From Branchiostoma floridae (lineage: Eukaryota; Chordata; Leptocardii; Amphioxiformes; Branchiostomatidae), in the NCBI RefSeq assembly GCF_000003815.2, contig NC_049996.1:16133452-16197451 (forward strand): a DNA stretch of 64,000 nt, read 5' to 3'. The notes beneath the pieces were generated by a model. The model ran no database searches. It saw only the letters and a list, made by a program, of their open reading frames with translations, and was not told where the DNA came from. Within the stretch, counting starts at the first letter, position 1. Every line of letters starts with the position of its first letter. Positions 30,137 to 64,000 of this stretch are shown piece after piece. The position numbers were made by a program, and so were the translations under genes.

Positions 30137-30364
30137 GTCTGATCCTTCTGCATAGGGGAGTTATGAAGTATGACATATGGGTAAATCTGAAATTCAGAGC
30201 GCTTTTCTCACAGTGATTAAATAAAACATAGGCTATGTGCCTTTGGAACAGTGACTAGTGAGTACCTTATCATATAAACTACGGCTTTGAGTTTTGCTCT
30301 TAAATACTATCCTTCACATGTTTATAACTACATACAACTAGAACGATTTCTAGACGATTTCTCC

Positions 30365-38833: not shown

Positions 38834-38904
38834 GTGTTGAAACCATGGGTACCTGACACCTGAACAAGTCATCATGGCTGAGGGCCAATGGCAAGGTCCC
38901 ACAG
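38834..38904 (+). CDS. First coding exon, start codon
   Basis: The acceptor CCTGTTTCAG ends at 38833. ATGGCTGAGG at 38874 opens MAEGQWQGPT and ends at the phase-1 donor ACAG|GTAAGA. A preceding ATG at about 38854 encodes only Met-Gly-Thr before a stop, a small uORF. Confidence 0.65.
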
Positions 38905-41900
38905 GTAAGATTTCACATCCTATCTTTCAAGCATGAAATTACTATAATTACAAATCATAATCCCTTGACATATATTTGTGTGTCGTTGGGGCACCATGAA
39001 TAGTCAATCCACCATCCTCCTCCAAAAACTGTGTCTTCCACTGCAGTGCTCTCATAGCTTCAGCTAGGCTCAGTCCAATCAATTCTTTTTGGGTTGGCGG
39101 AAACGGCTGCCCGGTCGGTCGGCGGAAACCGCTGCCCTGTCCGGTCCGGAGGTTGGTTTTGGGGTTTTGAGTGTACCAAATGTAAACAACATGGCTTGCT
39201 GTCGCAACAGTAATTTAGGTGCATTTCTTGTGTAGGCTGGCCCTACGTTGAACAGTAGTACTAATATCGTAAACATTACCGTAATTACCGTAATAACGGC
39301 GTGATTTTGATCTTATACACGTTTGCGGTAACCACCAGATTTCGGTGATGTCATGATCAGCTCATTAGCGCTTATAAGGTCGATAATGAGCCACTTGTAC
39401 TCACCGTAAGAACTGATTTGCGCCTTGATTTTTTTTGCGAAAATATTATCCCCAACACTAGTTTTATATTTATATACTCTGAAACAAGAAAACTGTAGGT
39501 TAGATTGATTGGATTGTGTAATTCATCGGAGGTTTTCGGCATTCCATGCGGCGCACATTAGGTCGTTGACCCCGAAATACGCAGCGTGTGGACACGTGGA
39601 TATGTGTGAGGCGCTTCTAATAGGGGACAGTAGTAAACTTTATTATTACTTGCTCTGGAATAGCTTTAGGCAAATAAGATGTGGGCATTGATCAGAGTAT
39701 GAGTCATTCGTGTTGAAGATTAATTGCTAATTTAAAATATTTTCTCGAGTCGACCATGGCTACGTTGTTTATCGCGGTGCTATTTGGGCTCCAACCGCTC
39801 TGCCGATCTGGGACTGGATGGGATTCTGCTGACTTTTAGTACTTTGGCCTCGAACATATTTTGTTAAATCCTTAGTTAAATCTTTATTATCTGCAGGTTT
39901 TTTCATTTCCGACATGTGAGAAAATTGTATCGTGATCAATCAAAGAATTGCAGTTTCAGGCTGTTTGATTAATAATAAATTATGTTCTCATTAATATTCC
40001 GTGTTCAAAAGATGAATATTCTTGATATTACCGACTGCTCTCCACGTAATTACAATCGTATTTACAGCATGTACACGATTACCGTCGTCTAGGGCTGGGT
40101 ACCGGTACAGAAAATTCAGGTCCAGGTCCGGTTCAGGTCCAAAGGATCAGGTCCAGGTCCGGACCTGAACCTGGACCTGATTCAGTATGACTCATACCAA
40201 TTGTCCATTTCACTACAAAGAAATCTGTTTGGCGGAGTATTAGACTTACACTGGCGTTTTAAAATCCTACAACGCTAACTGCACCTGTACGATTGACTGT
40301 AAACCTTGATAGAAATTACTATAAACTCTACTCTACTTCACTCTTGTCATTTTCTTCCAACTGCAAGCGCCAAAACGTGTGAATGCCTGATAAAATAATA
40401 TGTTAATTTTCTAATCGGTCCAACATCCGGTCCACCTAATTTTTTCAGGTCCGGTTTTTCTGGACCGATCCAATAAGAAAAAACGGTTTTGTACCGGTAC
40501 GCTGCCCTACCGTCGTCGTAATTTAGATACAGAATATTACCAGCCGTTTTCCAACCGAAGCCCCGTCCAAAATTTCGACACGCAGTTTTGTATACGTTTA
40601 TTCTACGATGAGTGTATGTTTGATAGTGAGATTACAATATATTAATGCTTTCTGCTGCAAGGAGACGCAGCTGCACTAGATACCTTACTCTGCTGTATGC
40701 AATACTCGAAACCCCAAAAAACAACCTCCGGACCGGGCAGGGGTTAGTTGTATTGTCCCTTGTAGTATGGTGTTTGCAAGTACTAGTCCCGATGACTATT
40801 TCAGATACATGTATGTAATATGCATCTGCAAGGAAGTTTGACATGTCCATGACATGACTTCGGTGATGGCCAGGGGGGAGTGACACCTTTTAGATTCATT
40901 GCTAGTGTAACAGTGGTGTTCAAATACCGCCTATCGTCCTTGCCCAACAGCTCTTGAGCTTTGGTGGCAACAGCGATAGCGGTCATGACTTGTAATCCGC
41001 CGACCCGAGTTCAATCCCCGGTGTCGGCATGGTTGTTTTCTTTCTGTTCTTACTCGCCCCTCTCAATTCTACAAGCCGATGCGGAACTGCTGGAGGAGAA
41101 ACCGCCCTCTGCCGAACCGGAGGTCACCACTGCCCAGGCCGAGGAGGACGTCTACGAAGCCATCAGCGATGACGAACTGGACGCCATGATGGATGAGGAG
41201 GCCATGAAGGAGGCTGACCAGACTGACTCCAAGGAGGAGGAAAAACGGGAAGCAGCGGATGTGCCACACTGTGAGTAACAGTCTAAGATGTGCCACACAG
41301 GGATGTCAATCTCGGAGATTCGAGGACGAATCTTGAAAAGAAAAGGGGGAGTAGTGTAACAGTGGTGTTCAAATACCGCCTATCATCCTTGCCCAACAGC
41401 TGTTGAGCTTTTGTGGCAACAGCGATAGCGGTCATGACTTGTAATCCGCCGACCCGGGTTCGATCCCCGGTGTCGGCATGGTTGTTTTCTTTCTGTTCTT
41501 ACTCGCCCCTCTCAATTTCTACACTACTAATAACTTGTAAAAGTGTGATAACTTTTTTTTACATTGCTTTGCAGATGTTGAAAAGTACTTCTTTTTCATC
41601 AAGGAAGAGGTCAGCTCAAATTGGAAGGACCTGGCCTTCCATCTTGGATTCAAGCGAGCAGACAGGGAGAACATAGCCAGTACAAACCGAGATGACAAGC
41701 ATCGCTGTATAGCCCTGTTGGAGGAATGGCACAATCGCAATGGAAAGAAAGCCACCATAGAGATCCTGATGGAGGCTCTATCTGAGGCAGGGTTACAGCG
41801 TACTGTGGATGGGCTGAAGAACAAATATCCTGGTAAGAATGATAATCATTGTTCCCCGAAATCTATTTTTCTATTACAAAATAAGACAGTAGCATGGGGA

Positions 41901-44900
41901 AGAAAATTTGTCTTTCACATGCACATTATCCGACTGCTGCCTACCCCTGTGTCAGGGATCCCAGCAGCAGATGATGGATACTACTACATTTGATGATACA
42001 ACACATTAGAATTATAAGATAGCAGATGTAAACACCCCTCCAGTCTGTGTATCTGTATCTATACAGCCGGTATAACCACCCTTGGGTGTAACACAGCTAC
42101 AAAGTTATAATAGCCATGAATATTACATATTGTGTGCTCTAAGAATCTGTACTATATATAGAAGTAATACAATCTCTTCTCCACCATACCTGAGTTGAGC
42201 ACGTCTTATAAGTCTTCATATTAAGTCTTCATATATTTAACTCTATTTTTCACCCAAATTGTCTCAACACCACAAACGGCCAGAAAGGACTAATTATAAA
42301 ATCTGGCCTGATATGTGCAGTGTACACATGGCAATGGTCTTATATGTGATGCCCTTGATACATTACCTAAAAAACTATGTACATGCTGTAACATTATAAA
42401 TGATAAACTCTTACTATATTCTTTGAAGTTATTATGCTAGCTTCAAGATAGAAGGAATTTCTGGCTGCCACATGGTATTTTCTTTGTTAGGGATCTCATG
42501 GAAAAGTTCTTAATACCATTTTTAGCTCAATAGATGACAGGACGATATGACAATAGAAACAATTGGTTCATAAATAAATAAATAAATAGATTATAGCATA
42601 AGAAAAACACACTCAGAAAAACAATTCAAATAAAACATTTATCCGAATAAAAATTTTCTATCCGATCCAAAATTGTGTTCACACTGCTCTTCGGCAATCT
42701 GATTAGTGCACCCTCAGTCTTATCCGAATAAAACATTAGTTGCGTTTCACGGACATATAGCTACATGGCGCTCCTTAAAGGTCACAGGTTGAGGTCAAAG
42801 TGAGGTTCTTAACTTTGTTCCTGCACTGGTCGAGGGATTTCTCAACTCCGTGCTCCACCATTCCTTTGGATATATAAATGTCCGTTCTTATATGGACTTT
42901 CCCAAGCTTTTTCTGCGTCTCCTCCCGCCCCCAGATGGAATTGAGCAGCTTCATCTGTTCCGGCATCCACTTGGCGAATGATGAAGATTTCCTTTTGGTC
43001 ACTTGCAAGTAAAACTTGGCGAAAAATACTAGCTGAAAACTACAAAGTGATCTGGTGCGTGTTGTGTTGCATGTCCTGCGCGATGCAAACTATGACCCCA
43101 AGTTCACAGATGTATGATGTCACACCCCGAACTAGCGGAATCCTATCCACTTGCGCGTTCACACTGCCGAATCACACAAATCGGACTCCCCGCAGCACAG
43201 TTCTATCCACTTCACCGAGGTGGATTGCGAAGGATTCGTTTCCATGAAATCCACTGCATGCCAAAACTTATTCGGATAACTTTATCAGTCTTAGATACAA
43301 GCACGTATTAATTGCAGCTTGTAACTATCTTGAAACGAGTGGAATAACTTGAAATACTCAAGACTTGCTGCATGCTTGTATTTCATAAATTGCAATAGAC
43401 TATACAGGGTGACTGAGCTTGTGGTTTTTCCTGACCAATATTGTCTTGTTCAGGCATGCATTTCCTTTCACCCCTCATATCCACCTCCAGAACTGCGCAG
43501 TCCAGATTCAGACCTTACTGTGCGCCTACAGCTGGGCCTGATGCGACAAACATGGGCTCAGCCAGGGGACATCGAAGGACAAATCGAAAAACGGATCGTA
43601 GAGCTGGAGCAGGAACTGTTTACTGCAGAAGTGTTGACGGACGAAGAGCGCTTCGGGAAAGCACATAAGGCCTTCCAGAGAAGCAAGGCTCTTCTTATGA
43701 ACACAGTTGTTGGAGGAGGGGTAAGTAATTTGGTGACTTACATGTATGTGGTGGGTTTTGGGTGATTAGCCAGTGTGATTCAGTACTTTTATAGCAATTT
43801 CTAGCAAGAACCAATCAGACTAGGCTGCTGACTGTAGAAATTAACTGGTACAAATGACTAAACACTGTGTGAATTGTCATGGACACGCTTGCAGAGAAGG
43901 TCAGCAGGACTGGCGCCACGTTGTTATCATTAGGTCTACAAAAATTTATGTCAATACATGTATTAGTCTTTTTTCACTTAAGCTTAAGACGTTCCAGATA
44001 AATTTGGATCTCGCCTTTACAGACCAAAGTAGCACGGCCTGCCGGGCAGTCAACAGTTGCAGGGCCTTCTCATGAATTCTTAGGGATGTTGGCAAAAGAG
44101 GGTGAGCTACAACACTTAACGGTCATGCACGTATGCTACAGTGCTTATACAATATATGCAGTAGTTTGATCGATATAAAATACCAGTCAGTTTATCATTC
44201 CACACACAATGTACTTGTATCAAGATCGTTAATCAGACATCAACTATATGTACGATGAGCAAGTCATCAGTCCTTTGAATTATGAAATTACTATACAGAT
44301 CATAATCCCTTGACCTATTTGTGTGTCGTTTGGGCACCATGAATAGTCAATCCACCATCCTCCTTCAAAAATTCTGTCCTCCACTGCTCTCATAGCTTCA
44401 GCTAGGCTCAGTCCTGTCCATTCTTTTATGTTGTCTTCCCACATTGTCCTCTGTGTTCCCCTCTTCTGATCACATAGTCTTTATAGCAAATGCCCACAAA
44501 CGCCCACTCTGGAGAAGTCCGCGCTGCACGAATCTCATATTTTTTGCCTGGAATATGTCCTCTTTGTGCTCCCATGTATTAATCCTGAGTTTCAAGTCAA
44601 TCCATTGATGCGAAGTGATATAAATCAAAGTTAACGATTGTCGATGGTCTTTTTAGCGAACGCCCAGAAAAAAGTATTTTTAGCGAATGCCGACTATATT
44701 CACAAAAATATCGGCCGTCGCGATTATTGTGTTTATCAGTCTTAGATACAAGCAAATATTAATTGCAGCTTGTAACCATCTTGAAACGAGTTGAATAACT
44801 TGAAATACTTAAGACTTGCTGCATGCTTGTATTCATAATTGCATAGACTATACAAGACTCATAGTTTGTGTTTTTTACTGGCCATTTGTGTTGTTTAGGC

Positions 44901-47900
44901 ATGCATTTCTTTTCACCCCTCGTATCCACCTCCAGAACTGCGCAGTCCAGATTCAGACCTTCCTGTGCACGTTCAGCTGGGCCTGATGCGACAAACATCT
45001 GCTCAGGGGCAGGCTGGGGACATCAGCAAAGAACATATCAAAGAACGGCTCTTCGAGCTAGAGCGGCAACTGATTACTCCAGAAGTGTTGATGGACAAAG
45101 AGCTCTACAGGAAAGCACTGAAGGTCATCCAGAGACAAAAGGCTTTTCTTATAGACATGGTTTATGGATCAGGGGTGAGTAATTTGGTGACGTATGTGGT
45201 GGGTTTGGCCAGCGTGATTCAGTAGTTTTGTAGCGATTTCTAGCAAGAACCAATCAGACTAGGCTGCTAAGCAGGTCACCAAGTGTCATTGACAAGTAGC
45301 CAATGACAGCCTAGCTGTGGCTATAGATAGCACACCTGGCTAATCCCTTGTTTCTTATAAAACACTTAAACCATTAGTGCATTTCAGTTGTTGTTTTACA
45401 TTTCTTAAATACAGTCAAACCTGCCCAAGACGACCACCCGGGGGACCGGGAAAAAACGGTCGATTTGGACAGGTGGTCACTGAGAAGAGTATCGACTCAA
45501 AACATGCCCGATGCAAAGTAAAATTGTTTCCGTTGTGTTTAATGGCAAATAGCAAGCACACTACTCGCACGCAAAGAACTTTATTGTCAAACACAACACG
45601 CACAATGTAAATTGTAAATTTGACCCCAAGCTTTTTGTACCTAACGTTTTAGACAGTAAGGGAACTTGATCGCTGTGTTCTTGAACTACGGTGCACCTTT
45701 CGAATTCGATGCCCGGTTTGTCCCAATAGCGTACTGACATTGTACCCACGGGCGAATGTACAGTACAGTTGGGCAAAAGCACTCACACAGATCTTTCTTA
45801 AAAAAAGTATGAGGCTATATACGTTTCAGCATTCGTTCACTTTATAATGATATAGACTTTAAAAAAAACTTCTGTTACAACTAGATTCGGATTTTCTTAC
45901 AACGAAATTTCCTCCCATAATACAGTAGACTGCCCCATTGACCCACCCATTGACTGCCGCCATCCTTATTCTAAACAATACATCGTAATGGCAGTCAAAA
46001 TCCGACGCAAACTGACCGATTTCGGCACAAAATCGCGCTAGTTATCATAAAAAATCGATGAAAACCTCAATTTTGAAAATGATGCGGTCGTTATGGGTCC
46101 CAATTTGGGCCGGTCGCGGTCGCGTTGGCCAGGTGGTCATTGAGAAAAGGTCGCTTAATGCTTACGTCAATGGGAAAAAAATCGGAACCGAGAAAAAGCG
46201 GTCGAAATGGCCAGGTGGTCGCTGAGAAGAGGTGGTTGCTCGGGCAGGTTTGACTGTATATCTAATTTATCAGTTTTAAAAGTTAACTTTGATGACGTGA
46301 GGAGACAGTAAAGGCGAAGTTTTACACCTTCAATGGCGATGAACTTGCGCTAATGGAACAATCTTTTGTACAATTCCAATCTGACAGGAGACTGATGCTT
46401 CCACAACATGTAAAACCTGTGACCAGGGTTTAAGAGCCCTAGAATGGACACCAATGAGTGAAGTGATCTGTGCGTGAATTGTCAGTTAAAATCACAATAG
46501 GCACTTCTTCCCTTTGCAACAAAGGTCAAAGATACTAGACTTGTGCAGCTGTAAAATAAGCACATATTATAATTATATGCTGTAGATTGAACAAAAAGGA
46601 TCAGAAAACAGATAGCAAATGTCATATTGCCAAAGTAAATAAAAAGTCAAAGAATAAGAATTTGTGAAAGAACAAAATGAAAAATCTATTGTTGGTAGGG
46701 GCCACTGGGTATCGGTACAGTAAATTCAGGTACGGGTCCGGTTCAGGTCCAGAGGATCAGGACCAGGTACAGAATCTACGGCCTTGTACCTGAACCTGAT
46801 TGTCTGTGAAAACTATTTGGCAATCATAACTCAAAACAATGGTCCATTTTCAATTATTTTGTTACAAAGGAATCTGTTTGGTGGAGTATCTGACCTCCAC
46901 TGGTGTTTTAAAATCTTTTAATGCATAGAGGCCCTCTTTCAAGTCCTCCTTGCTTTATGCATTAAACCAAGGCTTAAGCTAAACCTTTGACTGTAGAAAT
47001 TAACTGGTACAAATGACTAAACACTGAATTGGCATGGACACGCTTGCAGAGAAGGTCAGCAGGACTGGCACAAGAAGTTGTTTTCATTAGGTCTACAAAA
47101 ATTTATGTCAATATTAGTCTTTTTTCACTTAAGCTTAATATGTTCCAGATAAATTTGGATCTTGCCTTTACAGACCAAACCAGCACTGCCTGCCGAGCAG
47201 TCAACAGTTGCAGGGCCTTCTCATGAATTCTTAGGGATATTGGCAAAAGAGGGTGAGCTACAACAATTATTGATGGTCATGCACGTATACCACGTGCTTA
47301 TGTATGCAGTAGTTTGATCGATCTAAAGTACCAGTCAGTTTATCACTCCACACACAATGTACTTGTATCAAGATCGTCAATCAGACATACACTCGGCACA
47401 AAAAGTTTGGAATATCAACTTTGGTATATCATATTTTTGTTATTTATGCATCGATTTCAATGTATTATATATCAATAGAAAGCTTGTGTGATTTTCTTTC
47501 CCATGGTATCAAACTTATTATGATTGTTATCACATGAAACGAGCACAAGGCCTGCTTACGTGAGTGGGTCACGAAAAAAAAGTGCCCAAATTCCCCTACT
47601 TCTGTTCAACACTGCATCGTCATGTTGATATTGGCGCGTGTGTCACTGGTTCAATCAGTCCTCTTTTCACCTCACATTTTGTATGCGGAACATACAAGGT
47701 TTTAGTACACTTGAGTAGAGTTCATCTGCCCTTTCGATAGTTGTATGGCAGAATCAAAGCGTGGATGCGGCAAGGAGAACCGCACGCTGACAAGGCAAGA
47801 GTAACTTTCGGCATTTGGTGGTGGAGGCAGCGTCATGGTGTGGGTGGTATAACCACCATAGGGTAAACAAGACTCGTCATCATTCCAGGCAAATTAATGT

Positions 47901-50900
47901 GGTGACATATAGGGACACCATCCTCCATCCAGTAGCAACATTCTACCTCTTCAATATTGGACCAAATGCCATTCTGCAAGATTACAACACCAGTCCACAC
48001 AGAGCAAGGACCATTGGATGCTGGAGCACAGTCTTAGGGTGCAATAGCCTTCCTACGGCTTATGGCTAGCACTCGATTGATCACCTCTTGCCATGGTTCA
48101 GATTTTTTGCTTGAATAAAGATTAATAGTAGCTTTGATTGACATGTCATGTTTATCCAACTTGCCTTCATTCACAAGTCAGTACTGACGGAAGAAAATGA
48201 GCAGCATGGAGTGTTTGACTATCTGTTGTACCCCCTGTACGTAAGCGGGCTTTAAGTCCTCGTTCCATGAATTTACACTCATAAAATACTCTACTCAGAT
48301 ATGCTAAAAAGAAACTTGGATGTTCTGTATACCAAACGTCAGGTGATAAAAGGATTGATTGAATCATTGTCACCCGCGGCCATAACAACGGTTGAACCGA
48401 ACGATACAGTTTTGAACAGAAACGGGAATTTGGGCACTTTTTTTTCGTGACCCACTCACGTTAGCAGGCCTAGTGTATGTTCCATGAGTTAACAGTGATA
48501 ATGAGTTTGATACCATTGGAAAGAAAATCATGCAAGCTTTCTATAGATATATAATATATTGAAATTGATGCAGAAACAACATAAATATGATCAACCGAAG
48601 TTGATATTCCAAACTTTTTGTGCTGAGTGTATATACTATATGTACGAAGAGCAAGTCATCACAATGTTGGATAAAGTCTTTCTCTTTTAATGCAGTGGAC
48701 AGTTGAAGGTTCTCCGTAAGGGTGTTTAATTAAGATAGGTACAACAGAGAAATGGGTGGCGTCTTTTTTTTCAAACCCATTTCTCTGTTGTACCTATCTT
48801 AATTAAACAAAATGTTTCTTATAACTTTATAACGTTCGGGCAGCAGAACTTCGGGTCTTTACAGGAGGAAAGCACTTCGTGAAAAAAATATTCTCCATTA
48901 GTACAGATTATAAATTACATAATAGGCTTATAATTTCTGTTCAATCTTAAATTTGTATTCTACCAGAGAGGATCACAAAGTGAGCTTTCAGGTAAAGATC
49001 CTCAATTGTCAAAGTGTGTGTTCAATATCTAGATTATGCTATCATACAATTGTCTGTGGATGATGTTTGTTGACTTTCATCAAGCAGTATCTTGAAGTCT
49101 TAGGGATGTCAACAAAAAAGGGTGTCAGATACAACACTTAAAACTTAAGTACATTGTAACATAGGTCTAAGATACTAGTCAGTTTATCATTCTATCAAGA
49201 TTGTTACTCAGACACTGACTATTCTATCTTATATGTACGATAAAATGGCTCCTCTTTTCATCCAGGGGACAGCAGTGTTCCGCTCGAAATACGGCTGCGT
49301 GGTCCTGCAATGCAGCAGCTCTACTCCCAGGCCTGCCGCCAGGGGGTGCGACCGGTGCACAGCACGCGCGGGCTCGTGGTTGGTCAGTTCAGATCCGGGA
49401 AGACTTGTGTCGTCAGGAGGCTGACAGGAGAGGAAGTTGTTGAGGATGAACCGATAACAGACGGCATCGAGATTTCACCGAGCGTGATGACCAAAACCTG
49501 GCGGAAGGCAAAAGGTTTGAAATAGCTGTTTGGGCTCTTCCACACATATTGTACAATTATAATATATATTCAACTTTGCAAAATTGACATGTTCTTGAAA
49601 ACCGTGTACCCAGTATGACAAAATCATGAGGTCCTAACAATTGTTGCCTTACGCGATAGTTTAAAGTGGAATTGTCATACTAGTCGCGGCTATAACCATA
49701 CTAATAAAGACATTCTTGCTTACAGAGGAGCCAGATGAATTCAAGGAAGCCATGGCAGAACACTTAGCTGAGCAACAAGAAGAGAAAAAATTAAAAGACT
49801 TGGCATCGTCACGAACCCAACAGGTGGTCGGGCAGCACAGTGACAGTAAAGCCCCTACAGGTATCTAATGACGTTTAACATAACATGATAGGTACACAGA
49901 ACACAAATGTTAGCTCAGAGGCTTAGGACATCCACAAGGCAAATCAAGTATATGTACATGTACATGTACAAACAATCATTTTGCATGTATCTTCAAAAAC
50001 ATGCAAGGATATGTAATGCTTTCTTTCATCTTGTTCACATAAAGAAGAAACAGCGAAGCAGACTTTGCAAACACAGCAAAAGGAACCACTGAAAGAGGAG
50101 ACACCGACACAAAGTCAACAGACTGCAAACCTGGAAGATGAGCGTAAGAAACGTTTCACCTATTATCTCCATATCTCAATTAGTTAGAAATACATATTAG
50201 AAAGTTAATGTAAACCTGTACAGCATAGCCTGAAAGTAATTTTTTGTTCAATTGATTGTAGCTGATTGAGTCGAATGTCACACCCTTGGAGGGCTGACAG
50301 GATTGTTCACAATTACCTGGTATAATGATACAATCTTTAGATTTCATGTAACATTAACTGAAACAAAAAGTTTTTGTTGCAGGGAGTGGGGAATGTGTAG
50401 ACAGGGCTGCGTCACAACAAACACAGCACCAACAGCGGCTACAGGGTGATGTCCCGGTACAGCAGCAAGCACAGGACATTCCGAATGACGTCATAACAAA
50501 AGCCAAAGAGCGACTCCAGGGTGGTGTAACCGAGGAGCAGCTTGGAACAGCCGAACACCCGCGTCTCTCCATCTGGGACTTTGGCGGCCAGGCAGCGTAC
50601 TACGGCTCGCACCAGAGCTTCTTTACCTACCGCGGGATCTACATCCTGGTCATGTCACTGCTGCAGAAGCTGTCAGACCCAGTTCCTGATCTGGACTACA
50701 AGGCATCAGCTGACAACCTCGTCACTGGAAGAGGTACTACGCATATAGGTTAAACTTAATAATGTGGTGACAATGCAATCAGGTTGATCTTTCGTTAGAC
50801 TACAAAGGCATTTGATTTGAAGATGGAACTAAAATGGAACTTTAAGAAGTGTTAAAAAGCTGCAATGGACCAATCCCAAAACCCCACCCCCTGTTCGATC

Positions 50901-53900
50901 AAGGCTCTATTTCGAACACCTCCGTCAAAAATAGCCATTTCTGTCCTGCTGTGGCAGTTTTTGACGGAGGTGTTCGAAATAGAATAGGTGCTTCTATTTG
51001 TTCAATATGGTGTTCGACAGGATCGGTCCATTGTGGGATAAGCATTAACATTTTACAAGTATCTGATAAGCCTTTTCCACATGTCCAGACTACCTAGACC
51101 ACTGGCTGAACTCAGTCCACACACACACCCTGGTGCACGGACAGGAACACACGGGGAAGCCTCCTGTCGTCCTGGTCCTCACACACAAGGACAATGTCAG
51201 CAAGGTATGTAGATTTTTTAATATTTTTTTGAAAATATAAAGTTTACCGATGGGGGTGAGCTTGTCCTGGAGTTGCAGTTCATCTTGTTCATCAGGATCA
51301 GCCTTGAGTTGATTTTTTCAAATTAATCAATATTGCTTTGAGGTCTTCATTAGGTGAATTTTGTTCTCTTAATTTCAGTCCGACATTGAGAACTACAAGA
51401 AAGAAGTACTTGAACACATCAGTGGTAAGGCTGCCGGCAAACACGTCTTACCGAGGATTTTTGTCGTCAACAACTTTGACAAGGACAACAGCGACATTGA
51501 CGAGCTCCGAGAGTACCTCTGTGAGGTGGCGAAGTCTCAGTGGTACATGGGCCAGGAGGTGCCGATAACCTGGCTTCATCTGAAGTCCAAACTGATGGAC
51601 AAGCGGAAAGAGGGCGACCCTTTCTGTCCTTTCCAAGATGTCGTAGGTCTGGCCCGGGGTGATGACGTGGGCATCACAGACGACAGTCATGTTGCTGACA
51701 TCCTGACCTTCCTGCATGACCTTGGTGACATCATCTTCATCAACGAACATTTCCTCCGCGATCACGTGGCCCTTCGACCCCAGGTGATGATTGACGTCTT
51801 CAAGACCATCATTACCGTACCTGAGTACCAACAAGACAGGAGCATGGGTGGGGAGGTTGCCGAGATGTGGAGGAGGCTGGAGAACGAAGGCATCCTCAGT
51901 GACAGGCTGTTGACAATCATCTGGACCAAAGCAGATCAGAAGATGCAGAAACCCTTTCTACTCCAGAACAAGACCTTCCTCAAGCGACTGATGGAGAAGT
52001 ACTACCTCATCTGCAACGCTACGCCGATCGGTGTGGTTGACAACACAATGCAAGAGCCTGAGAAAGAAGAGATCTACTTCGTACCATCTCTTCTGGCCTC
52101 AAAGCCTGACGAGGGCACCTTGTATCCTCACATGACGAGATGCCAGTCACCCCTGTATGTCGTATTCGACAACATGTTCCTCCCCAGCGGCATGTTCTAC
52201 CGTCTACAAGCAATCTGTGTGCGCAGGTTTGGTCTTCAAGAGTCCCGTGTGTTTGTCAGCTGCGGTCGATTTCCTACCGATGATGCAAAGCAACAGTTCG
52301 TGGTAACCAAGGTGAAGCACTACCTGAAGGTGGAGCTTCTGTCGTCTGAATCTGAAGACCAGTCAGTGTTCACACAGGGACTTCCCGTTAGAAAGTTTCT
52401 CAGTAGCTGTCTGTTCGAGATCAAGGAGAAATGGATTCCCTCCATCCAGTATGATTGGTGCTTTGGGGAGGAGTCAGACGAAGGAACTGGCAAAATGGCA
52501 TTCCACAAGCTCTCTGACATTGGGCGTGAAATGGGAATGGGGTCTAGTTGGTGAGGCCAATTATACTTTCTATTTTTTGTCAGTGAATCAAATCTTTTCT
52601 TTTGTTTAGCCCATACATAAGAAGATTCCTGGTGTTCAGTGTCAGAACACTGTGTACTATTTGTGATGTTGCTAACTGATAGTTTTAAATACTTTTAATC
52701 TCAGTTTTCCAGAAGACTTTGTTGATGTGTGGGTGGGTGGCAGCGGTGCCCAGAGGATGCCCCGTGCAGGTAAATAATGCTTGTTTAACTTTTCTTACTT
52801 TGTATGACGTTTGCTTAAAGAAGAGTCTGCATGCCAACTAAAGGAAACACTTTGCACATTCAGAAAATTCTGGCGGTGCTGGACCAGTGATGATAGAGCC
52901 CACCCTGAGACCAAATCCAGTCCACACGATTGGCCCTATCCTGGACTGTATGGAGATGTGCGGCAGAGACGAAGGGCTGAGTCTGGCTGAGTGTGATCAG
53001 ATCAGGCACGAGCTCACATTCGTCAGCAGGTTCAAAGAGTTGGTTGCTACAGTCAACAATGCCGGAGACAAGCGTCGTCGCCTACTGGGTGCATCTGTGG
53101 AGGTTTGCCTGCCAGAGAGAGCAGCAATGTTCCCCAGACAAGAGAGAGGTAATGACTACTTCAAACCCATTTTCTGTTGTTGTTGTTAAAAACAACTGTT
53201 CAACTGTTTTATTCTCCTTGTGTGCATGATGATGCTCTGCATTGTGTAATAGTTTTTCTGCCAGAAATATTGAAACATTGATGTTTAACTTTTATTCTGC
53301 CTACCTTTCTAGGTAACACAATCGTTGTCCTGCATGTCGGAGACTACAATGACAAGCTCGTCCGGCCATTATTGGAAAAGGCAGTCCAGTCCTCCGGCAG
53401 GTACGGTGTAACAGTTTGTGAAGACGTCATCGAACCTGGGGATATCATGACTGACAAAATCTTGGATCATCTTCTCAAACAAAATGCTAGGATGGTCGTA
53501 CCAATTATCACGCCGCAGGCCCTCCACAGCAGGTACTGGTCCGCGCTCGGGTACGAGTTCTCCGTACAAAACAGGAACCTGGTCTTTCCGGTCTTCGCTT
53601 ACCCTGAAGGGACAAGGGAGCGTTTGCTGGAGGTGCTCGGCAGGCGCTGTGAGGGAATATTGGATATGCCATCTACAGAAGTACCAATGACCGGGGAACC
53701 ACTGTCCAGTACCAAAATCAGTCTGACTGCTGCAGAAATTATGAGAAAGGTGCGTTGATACGGTGCAATGTCTATTTTTATACTTTGTGGTCATAAAATT
53801 GTTTTTGTTGTTGAGTTATACACATGGAGTCACTTTTTTGGTTTGCTGTATCAATTATGTCAATTTTGTTTCCACAGGCATCGTCCTCTGTGGTGCTTAC

Positions 53901-56900
53901 AATGTACAAAATCACACCAGAAGGCTGCACACTTGAGGAGGATGGCGTCACTATCTCGTTTCCAAAAGGATGCGTCAAGACGGAAAGGTCCCTGTCCTTG
54001 GAGGTAAATTTAGGTAATATTACTCTGTAGGATCTTTGATATTATATCTTTGCCCTTGCAGACAAGCCAATGCGTAGATTAGATATGTACAGACGCAATG
54101 TTGCTAACACGTGTCTCTTTCAAGCTTGGCGATGCAGTGTTCAAATGTGATTGAAGATGACTTCATTCTTTTATCTTCCCAGTTTAGTCATGTGCTGTTG
54201 ACTTTTATTCAGTCATGCATAATGGGCAAAAGTGGATAATTGGTCAACCAAAATCTACTAATATCTGTATTTGTTTTCTGCATCATTTTTTTGTTATCCT
54301 GCAGGTTGAGATGCTCCCCATTGACGACGCCTTAACAAAGGCTTTCTCGGCTGTGACGCCGGTACTGACCGTCCACCAAGACCAGGAGGAAGATTTCTTA
54401 CAGCCCGTGAGAGTCAGCCTGCCGTGGGGGTGGAGGAAGAGTGGCTGTGGAGCGGACAATGTCGTCTTGATGGAGAGAAAATCCAAACCAAATCCTCCCC
54501 AGTGGACTTTGCTAAAACTGGAGTTTCAAGAGACAGAGGACGAAGTTACATTCTCAACGAGACACTTCTGCGGGTAAGGCATTGCCCTTGATAGAGAAAT
54601 CATTTTAATCATTTTATGCAAAGCTGTGTGCCGTCCTGTTGGCATAACAGTTAGGGTGTCTGGCCTGGAACCCAGAGGTCCTGGGTTTGAATCCCCTCAC
54701 ATGCTACCGACGTTGTGCCTTGGGGAAGACACTTTTACACAGTGAACTCACTTCACTCAAGCACGGGTAATGCGCTGTCCTTAAGAGAATAATCATTTCG
54801 TACATTCTATGCAATCACATAATGTTTTGCCTTGCTTTGTTTAATTCTATAGGATTGCCGGTGCCAAAGAAAGTGGAAATGGTGGCGAAAGCTCTACCTC
54901 TAGTAGCGACAGTCCAGGAAACCATGAGGAGGCAGACAATCAGGAGGTACCAGAAGAAAGAAACCTAAGAGAATCGGGGAAAATTGATGAGGCAGCCAAT
55001 GAGGCATTGGCAGAAAAAAGTATCTCAAGTAAACCTGGTCACCAGGATGAGGCAGCGACACAAGGGGTAACAGATGAAAGTATCTCAAGAGAGTCAAAGG
55101 TTTCATCAACACCCGCATCTACACCCACAACTGAGGCATTCCAGGGATGTTGGAACAGATATGCGGAAGACAGGGTGTACCTCATCATAAACCCAAACCA
55201 GGCAACAGCAAACAACAACTACGTCCACCTCATGTGTGTTCACAAGGACGATGACCCCACAGACTTCTTCCGAGCTGCCAACATGTTGCCGGTCCCACCG
55301 GTTCAACAACGCATCGTCATGGGCAAGGAAGAAAGGATAGATGCCAAGTTTGATAAAGAAAGAGAAGTCATTGGGAACCCCCTTGACGTTTCGGATGGTA
55401 TCAGCTTCTTCTTCCCTCCCGCTAACTGCAACAGGTGGTCCGTTGGACTGATTCCCAACACCTCGCGCCCAGCTAAGAAGAAGTGTCTGTTAGGCACCGT
55501 CCATTTCAGACTCTTTTCTGATACCGAAGAACAAGTAACTGATCTCAGACGCCGGATCCCGTCAGCACCCGTGTTCCTCTACTTTGACGGTGGGTCATTG
55601 GCCTTATCATGTTCCTGCCCTTATGGTTTTATGACATTGGTTGATTGTAAACTAACAAATAAGATCATGAAAGAGCATTCGGTTTCTTAAAATCTAGCAA
55701 ACAATTCTAATTCTCTGTCTAGAAACATCTAAACGGCCCTCATACAGATGGTAAAATATGTCAATTTTTGTTGAAATGCAGAACCACGATAAAGAGAAAG
55801 AATAGAATTGTACTATGTACTCCTTGGTGTAACATGCAATTCCACCAATGATGGGTTGTCTTTTACCTTCATGCCGTAAAAGTATTCCTCAAAGTAATTT
55901 TTTTCAATGGCAGATGAAGGAGAGACAATTAAGATTCAACAGAAGGATGAAGGTGTCATCGTCGTAAGCGAGCCGTTACAACTACAACAAAAGAGAGGTA
56001 AAACTAACATGATAATCATGTACCAGAAGCCAAGTGGTTTTTCTTTTCTTTACCAGATGTTACTAGGTACAGGCAGCCTCAGTTAAGAATGAAACAGGAA
56101 AATAGCTTTGTCCTTTTGGATAGTAGTCCAATCTATTGTGAATCATGGTCATATCATTCTACAAAATTAGATCAACTGTTTTGTTATGTAGTACTCCAAT
56201 TCACATGTACAATGCAGAGCGTATTTGGAAGTAAAAGTGATGTGGTCTATCTTACATTATCATAGGAAAGCCAAGCAAGGTTTATTTCTTTATTCAGAGT
56301 ATGGGTGGAGTCATGCTAAGAAGGAAACATGACATTGTACTGGTACAATGTTACTCAGGTACAGATTGTTTTTCGGAAACATAATGTTGACAAGAATCTT
56401 AGTTTCAGCTCCTCTTATCTTTGATTGCGTACATACCACACACTTTAGGTTTGCCACTTGAGGAAAATGTTAAATGTAGAATGTGAAAAGAAGGCTTATT
56501 TTAAGCAACTGTAGGTGTCCATGTATTCCTCTAGATATTTGTTTTCTCAATTGAACTGAATTGTATTGGCAACCCAATATCTAATTTTCAATAGATTTAT
56601 GGTTACTATAATACATTTAACTAAGCACCCTTTTATCACCTACATTCTACCTGGGATATTAGTAGCTCTAGTAATTGATCACGAATACTAAAATGAATGA
56701 AAATATGTTGATTTGGATTTGCAGAGGTCATTTCTATTCTCTTGGTTAACGACGAGTACTGTACATCCCATGGAGGGCCTTCAAATGTCAACCGTCAAGT
56801 GGCACAGTTCCTGCACCAGCATGGCACTACAGTCCATTGTACAGCTCTGCAAGCCTCTGAAGACGACAACAGGTGTGCCACAGAGGACGGTGTCATTCTG

Positions 56901-57950
56901 CACTTGCCAGTCCAAGGTTCAAGGAAGAAGAAGGCACCATCTTTGGAATGGTTAACCGACTACCACAGCTTTCACTATCCAGATATACCGCAGGATCTGA
57001 AGTGTATTGTGGGCCACGCGGATGTCACAAGTGAAGCTGCGAAGAGCATACAAGCGACCCGCTGTCAACACGCAAAGTTGGTCCTTTTCAACCACGACAT
57101 GCCAGAAGATACAGAGCACTACAAGGGAGCTCAGAAAGCGATGGCTGCGGGGAAGAAAGTGGAAGACATCCTAGAGGATACCAAGAACGCGGATGCCGTG
57201 TTCTCTCTGGGAAGAAGAATCTACGACCACTACGAGACGAAGTACAAGTCACTTGGAGACAGCAAACCAACAGAACACCTGATGTTCCTCCCAAGACCGT
57301 CCCCACTATTTGAAGCCATCTCTGTTAAACCAGGAGGAGGGGAGAAAGTTGTTCTGACTGTCGGAAGGGTGACCGAAGTGGAGAAGCTGAAAGGCCATGA
57401 CCTGGCAGCCCGCTCCATTGGGGAGGTTGCAGAGAAGATCCCAAACGTCAAATTGTGGGTTCGTGGGATAGATGAAGATGACTGGGAAGCGAGCAAGAAC
57501 ATCCTCGAGGAAAACCTGAACAGTGGGAGGATCAAACCCACACTGCTGCCATGTGGAACCCAGGAGGACATCGCTCAGGACATGCAGCAGGCCCACCTGG
57601 TCCTGATGCCGTCCCGTGCCGAGCCGTTCGGGCTGATCGGCCTGGAGGCCATCGCAGCGGGAATCCCTGTACTCATCTCTGACAAGTCAGGACTGGCAGA
57701 CATGATCACGGACTTAATCAACGATGGGAAGTGCAGCGCAGACATGAGGCACAGGATCGTGGAAACCAGCGTTAAGGAGTCCGACCTAGAGGAAGCTGCA
57801 AATGAATGGGCAAAGGCAATTGTGGGTACATTAAAGTACTCTGAACATGAATTCAGGAAAGCAGCCGAGTACAAGAAGCAGCTCCTGAAGTCCAAGTACT
57901 GGGAAGAGTCACACCAGAACCTGCTGCGGGTCTGTGGATTGACTGACTGA
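38874..57950 (+). CDS. Death domain-Roc-COR-TIR-ZU5-UPA-GT4 multidomain protein
   Basis: Coding exons: 38874-38904, 41076-41270, 41575-41832, 43491-43720, 44023-44101, 44936-45174, 47174-47252, 49266-49514, 49726-49860, 50045-50143, 50383-50733, 51089-51204, 51379-52550, 52705-52769, 52864-53148, 53313-53749, 53878-54003, 54305-54573, 54853-55589, 55914-55997 and 56725-57950. All junction phases match and the sum is 6462 bases (2153 aa). Order: acidic leader (11-75), death domain (77-160), helical cassette twice (162-264, 265-370), Roc GTPase (371-690), COR (about 740-1078), unassigned (1100-1194), TIR-like (1197-1300), ZU5 (1345-1470), UPA-like (1535-1715), glycosyltransferase GT4 (1746-2153). 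Death, ZU5 and UPA modules occur together in UNC5, PIDD and ankyrin; Roc-COR is the ROCO-family switch. I infer a cytosolic sensor or cell-death/immunity signalling protein. Fusion of separate genes by misjoined exons is the main alternative. Confidence 0.8.
39080..40745. mobile_element. Inverted-repeat element hosting the hAT-like MITE
   Basis: GGTCCGGAGGTTGGTTTTGGGGTTTTGAGT near 39140-39172 is mirrored by CTCGAAACCCCAAAAAACAACCTCCGGACC near 40705-40735. The MITE at 40090 is nested inside. No transposase is recognised. Confidence 0.55.
40090..40509. mobile_element. Intact hAT-like MITE with 8-bp target duplication
   Basis: The ends TAGGGCTGGGTACCGGTAC and GTACCGGTACGCTGCCCTA are inverted repeats, flanked by the exact 8-bp duplication CCGTCGTC at 40082-40089 and 40510-40517. 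The interior has GGTCCAGGTCCGG palindromes. Confidence 0.88.
40906..41523 (+). mobile_element. LTR pair with Ty3/gypsy-like internal 3' end
   Basis: Two direct repeats, 40906-41073 and 41355-41523, are about 95 percent alike, start TGTAAC and end TCTACA. Just before the second lie GATTCGAGGACGAATCTTGA, resembling the end of a gypsy pol frame, and the polypurine tract AAAAGAAAAGGGGGAG. Each repeat contains a tRNA-like block with a B-box (GGTTCGATCCC, 41457-41467). No target duplication is clear (CTAG against CTAC). The host exon 41076-41270 lies between them. Confidence 0.65.
41076..41270 (+). CDS. Acidic exon between two LTRs
   Basis: This 65-codon exon has phase 1 at both ends, between the acceptor CAATTCTACAAG and the donor CACT|GTGAGT. 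It encodes a strongly acidic segment (EDVYEAISDDELDAMMDEE). Its acceptor is formed at the last bases of the upstream LTR (40906-41073), and its downstream intron holds an LTR-element 3' end and a second LTR. Confidence 0.65.
41575..41832 (+). CDS. Death domain exon
   Basis: 86 codons, phase 1 in and out. The sequence has the six-helix death-domain pattern: WKDLAFHLGF, then IASTNRDDKHRCIALLEEW, then ATIEILMEALSEAGLQRTVD. Helix 3 and the W in helix 5 are in place. Such domains assemble with other death domains in apoptosis and NF-kB signalling. Confidence 0.88.
42638..43285 (-). mobile_element. Harbinger-like element with Myb/SANT-like fragment
   Basis: TTATCCGAATAA near the left pairs with TTATTCGGATAA near 43267. 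The minus-strand frame 43008-42775 reads WMPEQMKLLNSIWG and QCRNKVKNL, like the Myb/SANT-type DNA-binding protein of Harbinger elements. It is truncated. Confidence 0.5.
43491..44101 (+). CDS. Helical cassette copy 1 (two exons)
   Basis: Exon 43491-43720 (77 codons, phase 1 to 0) reads LRSPDSDLTVRLQLGLMRQ and IVELEQELFTAEVLTDEERF. Exon 44023-44101 (phase 0 to 1) reads TKVARPAGQSTVAGPSHEFL. The pair therefore has phase 1 at both outer ends, so it can be duplicated without breaking the frame. An alternative acceptor 15 bases further on also keeps phase. The first exon resembles the N-terminal helical half of a TRADD-N domain. Confidence 0.7.
44936..47252 (+). CDS. Helical cassette copy 2 (two exons)
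   Basis: Exon 44936-45174 (80 codons, phase 1 to 0) and exon 47174-47252 (phase 0 to 1) are clear copies of the pair at 43491-44101; the small exon differs at only a few codons (TKPALPAEQSTVAGPSHEFL). Intron flanks are also copied. The intron between the two exons holds the pogo-like MITE, and the intron after them holds the Tc1 element. Confidence 0.7.
45412..46256. mobile_element. pogo/mariner-like MITE, 845 bp, TA-flanked
   Basis: CAGTCAAACCTGCCC at 45412 pairs with GGGCAGGTTTGACTG ending at 46256, with TA on both sides. Longer subterminal pairing includes CAGGTGGTCACTGAGAAGAG. No transposase is present. Confidence 0.8.
47390..48629 (+). mobile_element. Degenerate Tc1-like transposon
   Basis: CACTCGGCACAAAAAGTTTGG at the left pairs with CCAAACTTTTTGTGCTGAGTG at the right, flanked by TA. 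Longer terminal repeats of about 200 bp are diverged. The interior 47813-48070 retains Tc1 transposase text: GGGGSVMVW, TILHPVATFYL and GPNAILQDYNTSPHRAR, in broken frames. It sits in the duplicated intron after cassette copy 2. Confidence 0.85.
48724..48808. repeat. Perfect 34-bp-arm hairpin
   Basis: The arm starting GTTTAATTAAGATAGGTACA at 48724-48757 is exactly reverse-complementary to 48775-48808, across a 17-base loop containing poly-T. Confidence 0.88.
49266..51204 (+). CDS. Roc GTPase module with Gln/Glu-rich insert
   Basis: Exon 49266-49514 has GPAMQQLYSQA, a typical ROCO lead-in, and the P-loop GQFRSGKT (about 410-417). Exons 49726-49860, 50045-50143 and the first half of 50383-50733 form a Gln/Glu-rich insert of about 140 residues. 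The G3 motif WDFGGQ (about 596-601) follows, and exon 51089-51204 has the G4-like THKD (about 680-683). P-loop Lys-Thr and the G3 Asp and Gln are intact, so GTP binding is expected. Confidence 0.85.
51379..52550 (+). CDS. End of Roc and COR domain
   Basis: A single 1172-base exon. It begins with the last Roc strand (HVLPRIFVVNNFD), then COR text such as EVPITWLHLKSKL, ADILTFLHDLGDIIFI and LRDHVALRPQVMIDVFKTII. COR follows Roc in all ROCO proteins and mediates dimerisation. The exon leaves in phase 2. Confidence 0.85.
52705..53148 (+). CDS. Linker exons of unknown fold
   Basis: Exon 52705-52769 (FPEDFVDVWVGG) and exon 52864-53148 (GPILDCMEMCGRDEGLSLAE, then FKELVATVNNAGDKRRRLL) join COR to the TIR-like domain. 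The second is helical and could be a small death-fold or adaptor, but I recognise no family. Confidence 0.6.
53313..53749 (+). CDS. TIR-like domain
   Basis: 146 codons. It opens with the strand IVVLHVGDYND, then VTVCEDVIEPGDIMTDKIL (a D-PG-I motif), the strand RMVVPIITPQAL followed by YWSALGYEF, and LVFPVFAY. The order matches TIR/SEFIR folds. A Glu after the Trp is a candidate for the NADase catalytic residue, but its spacing (W+6) differs from SARM1-type TIRs. Confidence 0.65.
53878..54573 (+). CDS. ZU5 domain (two exons)
   Basis: Exons 53878-54003 and 54305-54573. The text GCTLEEDGVTISFPKGCVK and then AFSAVTPVLTVHQDQEEDFL and PVRVSLPW follows the ZU5 pattern (beta strands with a Pro-Lys-Gly turn and PV-LPW strand) of UNC5, PIDD and ankyrins. 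Confidence 0.75.
54628..54795 (+). mobile_element. tRNA-derived SINE
   Basis: GTTGGCATAACAGTTAGGGTG (A-box region), then GGGTTTGAATCCCC (B box), and a tail CTTGGGGAAGACACTTTTACAC typical of LINE-mobilised SINEs. It lies in the intron between the ZU5 and UPA-like exons. Confidence 0.7.
54853..55589 (+). CDS. Acidic linker and UPA-like region
   Basis: The first 65 or so codons are Ser/Glu-rich and disordered-looking. From FQGCWNRYAEDRVYLIINPN onward the segment is strand-rich and ordered (DGISFFFPP, NRWSVGLIPN, LLGTVHFRLF). Its position directly after ZU5 and its beta content match a UPA domain, but the match is by order and pattern only. Confidence 0.6.
55914..55997 (+). CDS. Short linker exon
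   Basis: 28 codons, phase 1 in and out (DEGETIKIQQKDEG). It links the UPA-like region to the glycosyltransferase exon. Confidence 0.6.
56725..57950 (+). CDS. GT4-type glycosyltransferase domain
   Basis: The last exon, 409 codons including the stop. The N-terminal half has the GT-B/GT4 opening SILLVNDEY and GGPSNVNRQVAQFLHQHG. The C-terminal half has VVLTVGRV, KLKGHDLAARSI and the nucleotide-sugar signature SRAEPFGLIGLEAIAAGIP, with the E-x7-E pair at about 2045 and 2053. A complete, apparently active retaining glycosyltransferase fold is fused in frame to a signalling protein. Donor and acceptor cannot be read from the sequence. Codon use looks like the rest of the gene, so recent transfer is not indicated. 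Confidence 0.88.
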
Positions 57951-61842: not shown

Positions 61843-62366
61843 GCTAAGAACAAGAATAAGGTAGAATTAAGTAGGGGTTGTTTTAGATCTGTAAGCATGG
61901 GAAAGAAAATTTGTTTGTCTCATTTGTTGTTGAGTGACTGTGATTTTAATGTTTATCTGCACAAAATAATCCTTATTAATCTTTGCATTCAAGAAATTTT
62001 GTCTGCACATCAGCAGATAAGGAAACAATCTTAAGACTGTGAGAACCAAATGATCATGCAGGGGTTACATTTGATTCTGTCTGCTCCACTTACGGTAATG
62101 CATGTAATACAGTAATAGATGTAACAAATAAGCAACCTTAATTTTCATATGCTACAAACTTCTAACACTTCATTAACACACAAAGGATGTGTGCTAAAAA
62201 GAGATAATCATTAATGATTATCTCTTTTTTATGATTTATCAACAGTACATTACAGTATTACAATCAGCAAAATTCTTGACAATGTACATGTACATTGAGT
62301 TGTGCTCATGATATCAAATATTTCTTTTCACCCTTTTGTGTCCACCTCCTGAACTGTGTGGTCTAG

Positions 62367-64000
62367 ATCCAGTCCTTCCTGTGCGCCTACAGCTGGCTGT
62401 GGTGTCGCAAACATCTGCTCAAGGGCAGGCTGGGGACAAAGAGCCAAAGGATAAAATCTTAGAGCGAATCCTAGAACTAGAGCGGGAACTGTTTACTGTA
62501 GACGTGTTTAATGATCCGGTACGCTACAGAAAAGTACGAAAACTCTTTAAGAAACACAAGGCTCTGTTAAAGAGGGCTCTTAAGGGATCTGTCATCCTCC
62601 TCCTGACGTTCCTACGCCAGACTGATATGGACAGGTTCTACCACAACCACTACAGGGTTGGGGAGGGCAGCCTGTCTCAACAACTCTCACACATCCTCAT
62701 CTCAGAACACCTACAGGACAAGGTCAAGGGTGCACAGCTGATCGTGAGGCTCCAGGTGAAGCATGAAGACTATCTGCGGGTTCGAGGCAGACTGGGACAA
62801 GGTGAGAAATGCAAGTTTTGCTGAAACTTTCAGTTTTGCCCATAACAGAGTCTTAAACTCTTGTGGAACAAAAGAACGAAGATTTATTTCATAATCTTCT
62901 TAGTTCTACCAACAAGGATTTAAACTTTCATGTCAATCATTCAATTACAATGTTATTTTCTCCTTTTGTAGAAAAAGTTTTGAAGAGAATAAGATTTCTT
63001 ATTTGCAATAAGATTTAGCATCAAACAACTCAGTCTGTACTTCATTTATTTACATGTGTTATAAATCTAGTCCCTTCAGTCGTTTATCTAATTTTCAAGG
63101 GAGCCTGCATAAAGAGGTCTTACACAACACTTTGACCATGAAAGCTCCTTGCTTTGACCAATAAACAGGATTGGACCGTACCACTTCTGTTGACAACTTG
63201 CTGACCCTCCCACCCCCCAACAGACAAGTGGACCATTCCAGCCTGAGAGCCTTAGACCTGGCCGTGGTTGGTAGAGAGGACCAGTCCTGTGCAGAGGGAC
63301 GTGATCACAACTCAACACCGAAGTTCCGAGTCAGACAGATGCAGGCAGTTGTGAGAACAGGTAGGGAGAAAGCAGAAGGACTGGCTAGGCAGCTGCAAGA
63401 GCTTCAGATCAAGCAGGGACTGACACAGACAGCCAGAGAAGAGACAGAAGCCACAGAATACCTTCTGAGCAAGGAGGTAATCAGGAGGACAGAGCAGAAG
63501 GAGAAAGCAGGGAAAATCCTAGAACAGAAGCTAGAAATTCAGCATCTAAAAGAAACCAACAATAGCATGGCAGCTACAATAGTGGAACTTACAGCTGAGA
63601 ACACAAGGATTTCCAATCGACTTGCAGACATTCCTAAACTCTGTGAAGAAGTCAGAAAATGGAGAGAGAAAGACAAGACATCACAGAAAGTCCTGTCAGA
63701 ACATGAAGTAGAAATCCAGCGGCTCCAGGAGACCAACAAGAGCATGGCAGCTACAATAGAGGAATTGCTGGAGGGCAAACACACACTGGCAGATGGTAAG
63801 GCACAAATAATGCATGAGAACTGCCTTTTTCTAGGCTAACAATGACAACTGTTGTCACTTCTTCCCATGAGTTTCAAGCATGGAAAAACTTCTAGATTGT
63901 GTGAAATTGTCTATATGCTGTTGCAGGTTTTTCAGCTGCGGCCACATCTCAGGACAGCAGGAAATCTCTTCTACAAAGGTTTATGGGTTTATTTTCATCA
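62367..64000 (+). CDS. Partial paralogue: TRADD-N-like domain plus coiled coil
   Basis: Exons 62367-62801, 63169-63795 and 63927 onward; junctions are phase 1. The first exon starts like cassette exons 43491 and 44936 (LPVRLQLAVVSQTSAQGQ, ILELERELFTVDVFNDP), then runs straight on into a beta-rich part, SVILLLTFLRQTDMDRFYHN to AQLIVRLQVKHEDYL, that follows the order of a TRADD N-terminal domain. The second exon is mostly coiled coil with an internal repeat (ETNNSMAATIVEL and ETNKSMAATIEEL). No start codon is visible and the gene runs off the window. A function as an adaptor in death or NF-kB signalling is inferred. Confidence 0.65.

Follow-up and report, generated by a model that had tools for sequence, protein, structure and literature searches.

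What kind of protein is encoded by an amphioxus gene that appears to run from a Death domain, through a GTPase switch, to a sugar transferase? The gene in question was predicted in a 64,000-nucleotide stretch of Branchiostoma floridae DNA (contig NC_049996.1, positions 16,133,452 to 16,197,451 of assembly GCF_000003815.2), hereafter the window. A sequence-only reading had joined Death, Roc, COR, TIR, ZU5, UPA and GT4 glycosyltransferase domains in one reading frame and proposed a sensor with sugar transfer among its outputs. Here we follow up this prediction computationally, using the predicted protein and the 513 Mb genome (431 contigs, referred to by C-numbers). Sequence comparison indicates that the window gene is a member of a large shuffled family, in which glycosyltransferase and Death modules occur, by position, as alternatives downstream of ZU5-type modules.

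The gene model was rebuilt by a script that tests the proposed splice junctions on the window sequence. The 21 phase-matched exons and the 2153-aa frame were recovered exactly, at 38874-57950 on the plus strand and from ATG to TGA, with GT-AG ends at 20 of 20 introns, agreeing phases at every junction and neither frameshift nor internal stop in any exon. Judged from the sequence, exons 8 to 21 very probably constitute one gene and exons 3 to 21 probably do; exons 1 to 7 are much more weakly supported than the rest of the model.

Running the proposed domain search on the predicted protein in two halves, with Pfam cut-offs applied, recovered Death (49.2 bits, cut-off 22.6), Roc (41.8 bits, cut-off 27), COR-A (41.3 bits, cut-off 35.3) and GT4-conflict (PF20706; 228.3-231.9 bits, cut-off 26). 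COR-A follows Roc, so that Pfam itself gives the Roc-COR order that defines a ROCO protein. The PF20706 profile is covered from 1 to 385 of its 385 positions, bearing out the claim of a complete GT4 enzyme at the C terminus. The translation contains GQFRSGKT, WDFGGQ and THKD, which we take to be the P-loop, G3 and G4 motifs of the GTPase; the spacing of about 180 residues between P-loop and WDFGGQ, partly Q/E-rich, is unusual. Pfam matches of the protein include neither NACHT nor NB-ARC, and identity as an NLR was rejected on this basis. Pfam TRADD-N is likewise unmatched in the protein, and exons 4, 6 and 15 carry no domain name.

The window sequence alone yielded no Pfam match to TIR, ZU5 or UPA, and these names therefore needed a separate test. 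Single-sequence searches of Pfam and PDB for TIR and ZU5, and of Pfam for exon 19, gave nothing credible, so profiles were required. A 20-sequence profile of exon 16 (window plus genome relatives) matched 13 PDB sequences at E<=1; the seven at E<=0.001 are all bacterial TIR entries (best 1.2e-10). Individual family members are matched by Pfam TIR_2 (6/20) and Pfam TIR (4/20). Structure prediction, also proposed earlier, gave an AlphaFold model with mean pLDDT 88 whose 15 PDB matches at E<=0.001 comprise 12 TIRs and three flavodoxin-like proteins. By profile and predicted fold, exon 16 qualifies as a TIR domain. Joined exons 17 and 18, as an 11-row profile, matched only ankyrin-3 (E 2.8e-4) and ankyrin-1 (1.1e-3) in PDB, while Pfam ZU5 matches 2 of the 11 members weakly (best E 0.0059) and Pfam FIIND one (E 0.072); they qualify as ZU5 by family profile only. 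The proposed architecture thus holds for Death, Roc, COR-A and GT4 by Pfam and for TIR and ZU5 by family profiles, and leaves UPA unproven.

The association of Roc with GT4 extends well beyond the window. The genome contains at least 57 GT4-conflict places, 147 Roc matches and 150 Death places. Of the 57 GT4 loci, 25 have a same-strand Roc or P-loop match no more than 15 kb upstream, compared with a mean of 0.54 and a maximum of 4 in 1000 random placements; extending the distance to 20 kb gives 28/57. Same-strand downstream Roc occurs at 11/57, as tandem arrays would give, and opposite-strand Roc, up- or downstream, at 0/57. Roc, TIR and GT4 follow one another in order at six further loci (four on C5, two on C17), and C3 has weak TIR matches (E 0.3-0.7) 5' of Roc. 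Of the 57 GT4 loci, that in the window alone has Roc, TIR and a window-type ZU5 upstream; three C5 GT4 loci have a distant ZU5-like module at the corresponding place.

Six close copies of the gene core were found, four at C18:3.39-3.46 Mb, one at C12:2.96 Mb and one at C10:16.98 Mb. They keep exons 15 to 19 in order (41-95% identity by exon, some matches being partial), and five of the six retain part of COR. The exon 15 domain also precedes TIR at a C5 locus (53%). Pairwise dN/dS values, taken without significance test, are 0.16-0.33 across TIR, ZU5 and COR and 0.41 for exon 19; GT4 gives 0.24 at a dS of 1.36, near saturation.

The position downstream of ZU5 was surveyed at 24 ZU5-type loci, namely 12 window-type ZU5 and 12 C5-type ZU5-like modules, by recording Death or GT4 within 8 kb on the same strand; these assignments are by position and not from spliced transcripts. 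Death was found at 14 loci, GT4 at 6 (the window and five others), neither at 4 and both at none. Control searches gave 1/24 matches on the opposite strand and 2/24 upstream on the same strand. The name ZU5-like is tentative because the similarity of the C5 module to the window ZU5 profile is weak (hhalign probability 9.6%, P 0.0034); its second half does not match this profile, and no match of the module reached Pfam or PDB. Outside the 24 loci, at C17:16.19 Mb, a Death match lies about 1 kb 5' of GT4, so the two modules are not strictly exclusive genome-wide. This region (C17:16176806-16193358) carries Roc, TIR, two Death matches and GT4 in one same-strand row.

The glycosyltransferase itself appears to be conserved as an enzyme. 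E299 and E307 (EX7E), R214 and K222, which we presume to be active-site residues, are invariant in the 14 amphioxus copies aligned out of 57. A tree of 17 rows, comprising these 14 and three long-branched bacterial sequences, groups the window GT4 (support 98/98) with one C191, one C14 and two C5 GT4s, all four having an upstream Roc, and separates it from the GT4 loci of the same contig that lie at a distance of 0.25-0.35 Mb and have no Roc match. Further Roc-linked GT4s (C3, C8 and another on C191) fall outside this group. Bacterial relatives were found at 39 loci; the nine longest-matching ones, which were read, are 25-33% identical and place GT4 at the C terminus in 7/9 and at the N terminus in 2/9. 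Five are ORFs of 1641-1673 residues ending in GT4, and the only one of these scanned has a sub-threshold NACHT match (20.4 bits, cut-off 26.7). Roc was not found by Pfam in two of the nine, the remaining seven not having been scanned for it.

We somewhat favour the reading, drawn from sequence comparison, that the window gene encodes a ROCO-class receptor, located in the cytosol and serving innate immunity or stress responses, with sugar transfer as its output. Its N-terminal part would sense or recruit, through Death and a duplicated domain here and through ankyrin repeats in a close copy; the Roc-COR GTPase would act as the switch, and TIR and ZU5 as assembly and relay modules. Once activated, GT4 would glycosylate a target, either of the invader or of the host, whereas sister proteins would recruit partners via a terminal Death domain. 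We infer a single transcript, a cytosolic location, an activation step, a trigger and a substrate. The sensor with sugar-transfer output proposed earlier remains conjectural, and it is the best-supported mechanism because GT4 fills the Death slot of relatives and keeps its conserved active-site columns.

Several observations weigh against this reading. Downstream of ZU5, five of the six close copies have Death and none has GT4, so that GT4 may have been captured recently or may belong to a gene of its own; in the C12 copy, the only one read further downstream, the next recognised exon is Death (Pfam E 1.4e-19) and not GT4. No Roc match lies within 20 kb upstream of 29 of the 57 GT4 loci. Exon 3 is only 40% identical to the downstream Death of the family. 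On C12, a Death domain 62% identical to exon 3 stands 11 kb 5' of the Roc exon, on the same strand. It is the only hint of exon 3 being shared by a Roc copy, and by its position it may or may not belong to the C12 gene. The TIR domain does not have the usual catalytic glutamate of TIR NAD+ hydrolases, which we take to lie four residues after a conserved Trp: this position is Gly in the window (WSALGYE) and Glu in 3/20 aligned rows, with an invariant Glu two residues beyond it in the 20-row alignment. NADase activity of the window TIR is therefore doubtful. Finally, UPA was sought in exon 19 by profile and by fold. The profile search gave no match; the model shows a low-confidence linker of about 90 residues after ZU5 and then a beta-sandwich, with 0/865 PDB matches at E<=0.001, and so the predicted structure did not bear out the proposed UPA.

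The strongest rival concerns the N-terminal exons. Exons 1 to 7, with Death and the exon-4-type domains, could form a gene of their own, separate from a ROCO-TIR-ZU5-GT4 gene that starts elsewhere, the two being joined in the model by the chance of shared phase-1 introns (13 of the 20 introns are phase 1). The exons 5' of Roc are the weakest because the close copy at C18:3.42 Mb has about nine ankyrin repeats within 3 kb upstream of its Roc exon (C18:3421171-3424170). The exon-4 domain, duplicated with its linker as exons 6 and 7 (43491-47252), recurs in a third copy at 62351-62590, upstream of a coiled-coil-like ORF (63165-63839), and beside Death at C16:16.537 Mb, with no Roc reported nearby. 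Exon 2 lies between two direct repeats that are 96.5% identical (40903-41523), its splice acceptor falling at the end of the first. Set against this, in the single copy with upstream DNA read, a CAG in matching phase stands 5' of the Roc exon, so that an upstream exon is expected, and the exon-3-like Death upstream of the C12 Roc also argues for a joined gene. A search with the repeats of the C18:3.42 Mb copy found no ankyrin repeats in the window, other first-exon types not having been searched for. We consider two genes a real possibility, though not the probable one.

Divergence between the duplicated exons bears on the same region. Exons 4 and 6 differ at 40/230 sites, compared with 21/297 in the flanking intron (p 3e-4), and give dN 0.27 and dS 0.11 (Fisher 0.04) in a single post hoc comparison. 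No excess is seen in comparisons with the 62.35 kb copy (dN 0.37-0.39, dS 0.55-0.57), and diversifying selection is not upheld on these two grounds. Either gene conversion with the 62.35 kb copy or fast divergence within a recognition region could have produced this pattern.

The receptor model with sugar transfer as output has also to be compared with a different role for GT4. As a non-enzymatic sensor, GT4 would bind a glycan or nucleotide sugar while Death and TIR provide the outputs. The N-terminal Death could indeed recruit partners, and the abstract of PMC8195603 names GT4 alongside invader-sensing modules. We regard this role as unlikely in view of the active-site columns invariant in the 14 aligned copies and of the Death slot that the enzyme occupies.

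It is less likely still that the receptor stops after exon 20 and that the GT4 exon is a separate downstream gene, as the Death-bearing close copies and the GT4 loci without Roc match on the same contig might suggest. Exon 21 has a clean phase-1 acceptor, and the first in-frame Met of the open frame around it falls deep within the GT4 domain, which means that the enzyme requires coding sequence from an earlier exon. The five other loci where GT4 follows a ZU5-type module and the tree grouping with Roc-linked GT4s also oppose such a separation, and exon 3 was the sole Death exon detected in the window. That the locus is a decaying or chimeric pseudogene produced by shuffling, to which the repeats and duplications of its 5' half might point, is very improbable given 21 exons free of frameshift and stop and dN/dS below 1 in the core and GT4.

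How does this gene compare with known systems? DAPK1 is a ROCO protein with ankyrin repeats and a terminal Death domain. In this it resembles the sister copies; the window protein, in which no kinase domain was found, differs from it by TIR, ZU5 and GT4. Kaur et al. 2021 (PMC8195603) suggested that GT4 serves as an effector and modifies molecules of the invader. As described in parts of that paper, the same GT4 family (PF20706) is expanded in metazoans and fused to immune-type domains, including in cephalochordate and coral proteins; GT4-TRADD-N occurs in cephalochordates, hemichordates and cnidarians. These metazoan forms are GT4-TRADD-N-LRR and variable coral fusions, whereas the window has ROCO-TIR-ZU5-GT4, an order absent from section 15 of the paper; the source data of its Figure 6 and its supplementary tables lie outside this scope and may list it. 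Bacterial Roc-COR (AP-GTPase) conflict proteins likewise have a Roc-COR switch and a C-terminal slot for a GT4 effector, with N-terminal LRRs in place of Death (ankyrin repeats in the copy), TIR and ZU5 (PMC8195603, in part). Since such proteins carrying GT4 are published, a Roc switch combined with GT4 is in principle no novelty, and the surprise expressed earlier at a protein ending in GT4 is smaller than stated.

Coral glycos_transf_1 proteins also place a glycosyltransferase on an immune-type chassis, with LRR, TPR or ankyrin repeats; from the sections consulted of PMC12314368, the LRR forms carry NACHT and the TPR/ankyrin forms mostly no named NTPase, in contrast to Roc-COR here. Whole-word searches for glycosyltransferase, Roc and ZU5 found none in the 2008 amphioxus domain-shuffling paper (PMC2575513) or in the accessible part of the 2025 lancelet pangenome paper (PMC12373286), which reports Death and TIR as enriched in dispensable genes. 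Brown algae have ROCO genes whose repeat exons are shuffled and under selection; these are known as candidate immune receptors (PMC11378527, in part). The domain order of the window is undescribed in the open-licence literature searched, a scope that ends short of the PMC8195603 supplementary tables. The novelty lies in the complete order of domains and in the Death/GT4 swap, GT4 as a conflict effector in animals and on bacterial Roc-COR proteins being already published (PMC8195603). Together, order and swap would define a family of chordate genes whose single GTPase chassis appears to accept either a sugar transferase or Death in one downstream slot. The proposal of GT4 as an animal immune effector thereby becomes directly testable through swapping or inactivating one domain, and shuffling in amphioxus immunity would reach the level of whole output modules.

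PIDD, UNC5 and NLRP1-CARD8 likewise have ZU5, then a beta module, then a terminal output domain. The window protein differs by the unproven UPA, the linker of about 90 residues, Cys for Ser at the motif and GT4 for Death/CARD. In this group an HFS/SFS cleavage motif stands where the window has HF-C: the F-S bond is cut at the corresponding place in CARD8 and NLRP1, and HFS is present in PIDD and Nup98 (PMC3210808, in part). HF-C ends ZU5 in the window and in five of the six close copies (C12 and the four on C18); elsewhere the ending is QFS (C10), HFS (C15) or HFQ (one C9 and both C14 loci). The F-S motif itself is therefore absent at this place in the window protein, and in the window model the residues following HF-C are not predicted as strand, unlike in CARD8. 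Self-cleavage of ZU5 between Phe and Cys (HF|C), which would release a C-terminal enzyme fragment from the Death-Roc-COR-TIR half to sugar-tag a target, seems improbable; if true, it would be a glycosylating counterpart of NLRP1/CARD8 release, with an enzyme output in place of a death fold.

Table 1. Exons of the rebuilt gene model, in window coordinates
Exon	Feature	Position	Strand	Remarks
1	Proposed start (aa 1-10), weak	38874..38904	+	Too short for homology search
2	Acidic linker (aa 11-75), weak	41076..41270	+	Flanked by two 172-bp direct repeats
3	Death domain	41575..41832	+	Pfam Death E 3.7e-14
4	Domain without Pfam match (copy 1)	43491..43720	+	
5	Linker (copy 1)	44023..44101	+	From gene model
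6	Duplicate of exon 4	44936..45174	+	57.5% aa
7	Duplicate of exon 5	47174..47252	+	85% aa
8	Roc P-loop GQFRSGKT	49266..49514	+	Close copies on C18, C12, C10
9	Charged linker inside Roc	49726..49860	+	From gene model
10	Q/E-rich linker inside Roc	50045..50143	+	From gene model
11	Roc with WDFGGQ motif	50383..50733	+	Pfam Roc E 1.5e-6
12	Roc end, THKD	51089..51204	+	From gene model
13	COR	51379..52550	+	Pfam COR-A E 2.3e-11; pairwise dN/dS 0.27 vs C12 copy
14	Linker	52705..52769	+	
15	Conserved unnamed domain 5' of TIR in the seven copies compared	52864..53148	+	No Pfam match
16	TIR	53313..53749	+	Family profile and fold
17	ZU5, first half	53878..54003	+	Family profile
18	ZU5, second half, ending HF-C	54305..54573	+	Family profile
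19	Low-confidence (disordered) linker, then beta-sandwich at UPA position	54853..55589	+	
20	Linker	55914..55997	+	From gene model
21	Complete GT4-conflict glycosyltransferase and stop	56725..57950	+	Pfam PF20706 E 1.6e-68

Elsewhere in the window, a minus-strand match to the Roc exon at 23.5 kb (30%, E 3e-4) was judged a chance match because the local ORFs (22000-30200, minus strand) resemble what we take to be the gene for La (SSB), an RNA-binding protein. Elsewhere in the genome, GT4 genes without Roc match at C18:16.44-16.54 Mb (L029, L034, L037) have 5' segments resembling, by eye, a split death fold; the label Death-GT4 was dropped for them, as Pfam was empty for the one piece scanned (L037:403-591). 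At three loci on C14 and C8 (L030, L033 and L038), OTU-type protease ORFs, called by Pfam in L030 and by eye in the other two, lie directly 5' of GT4 and downstream of Roc, and point to a possible Roc-OTU-GT4 receptor class.

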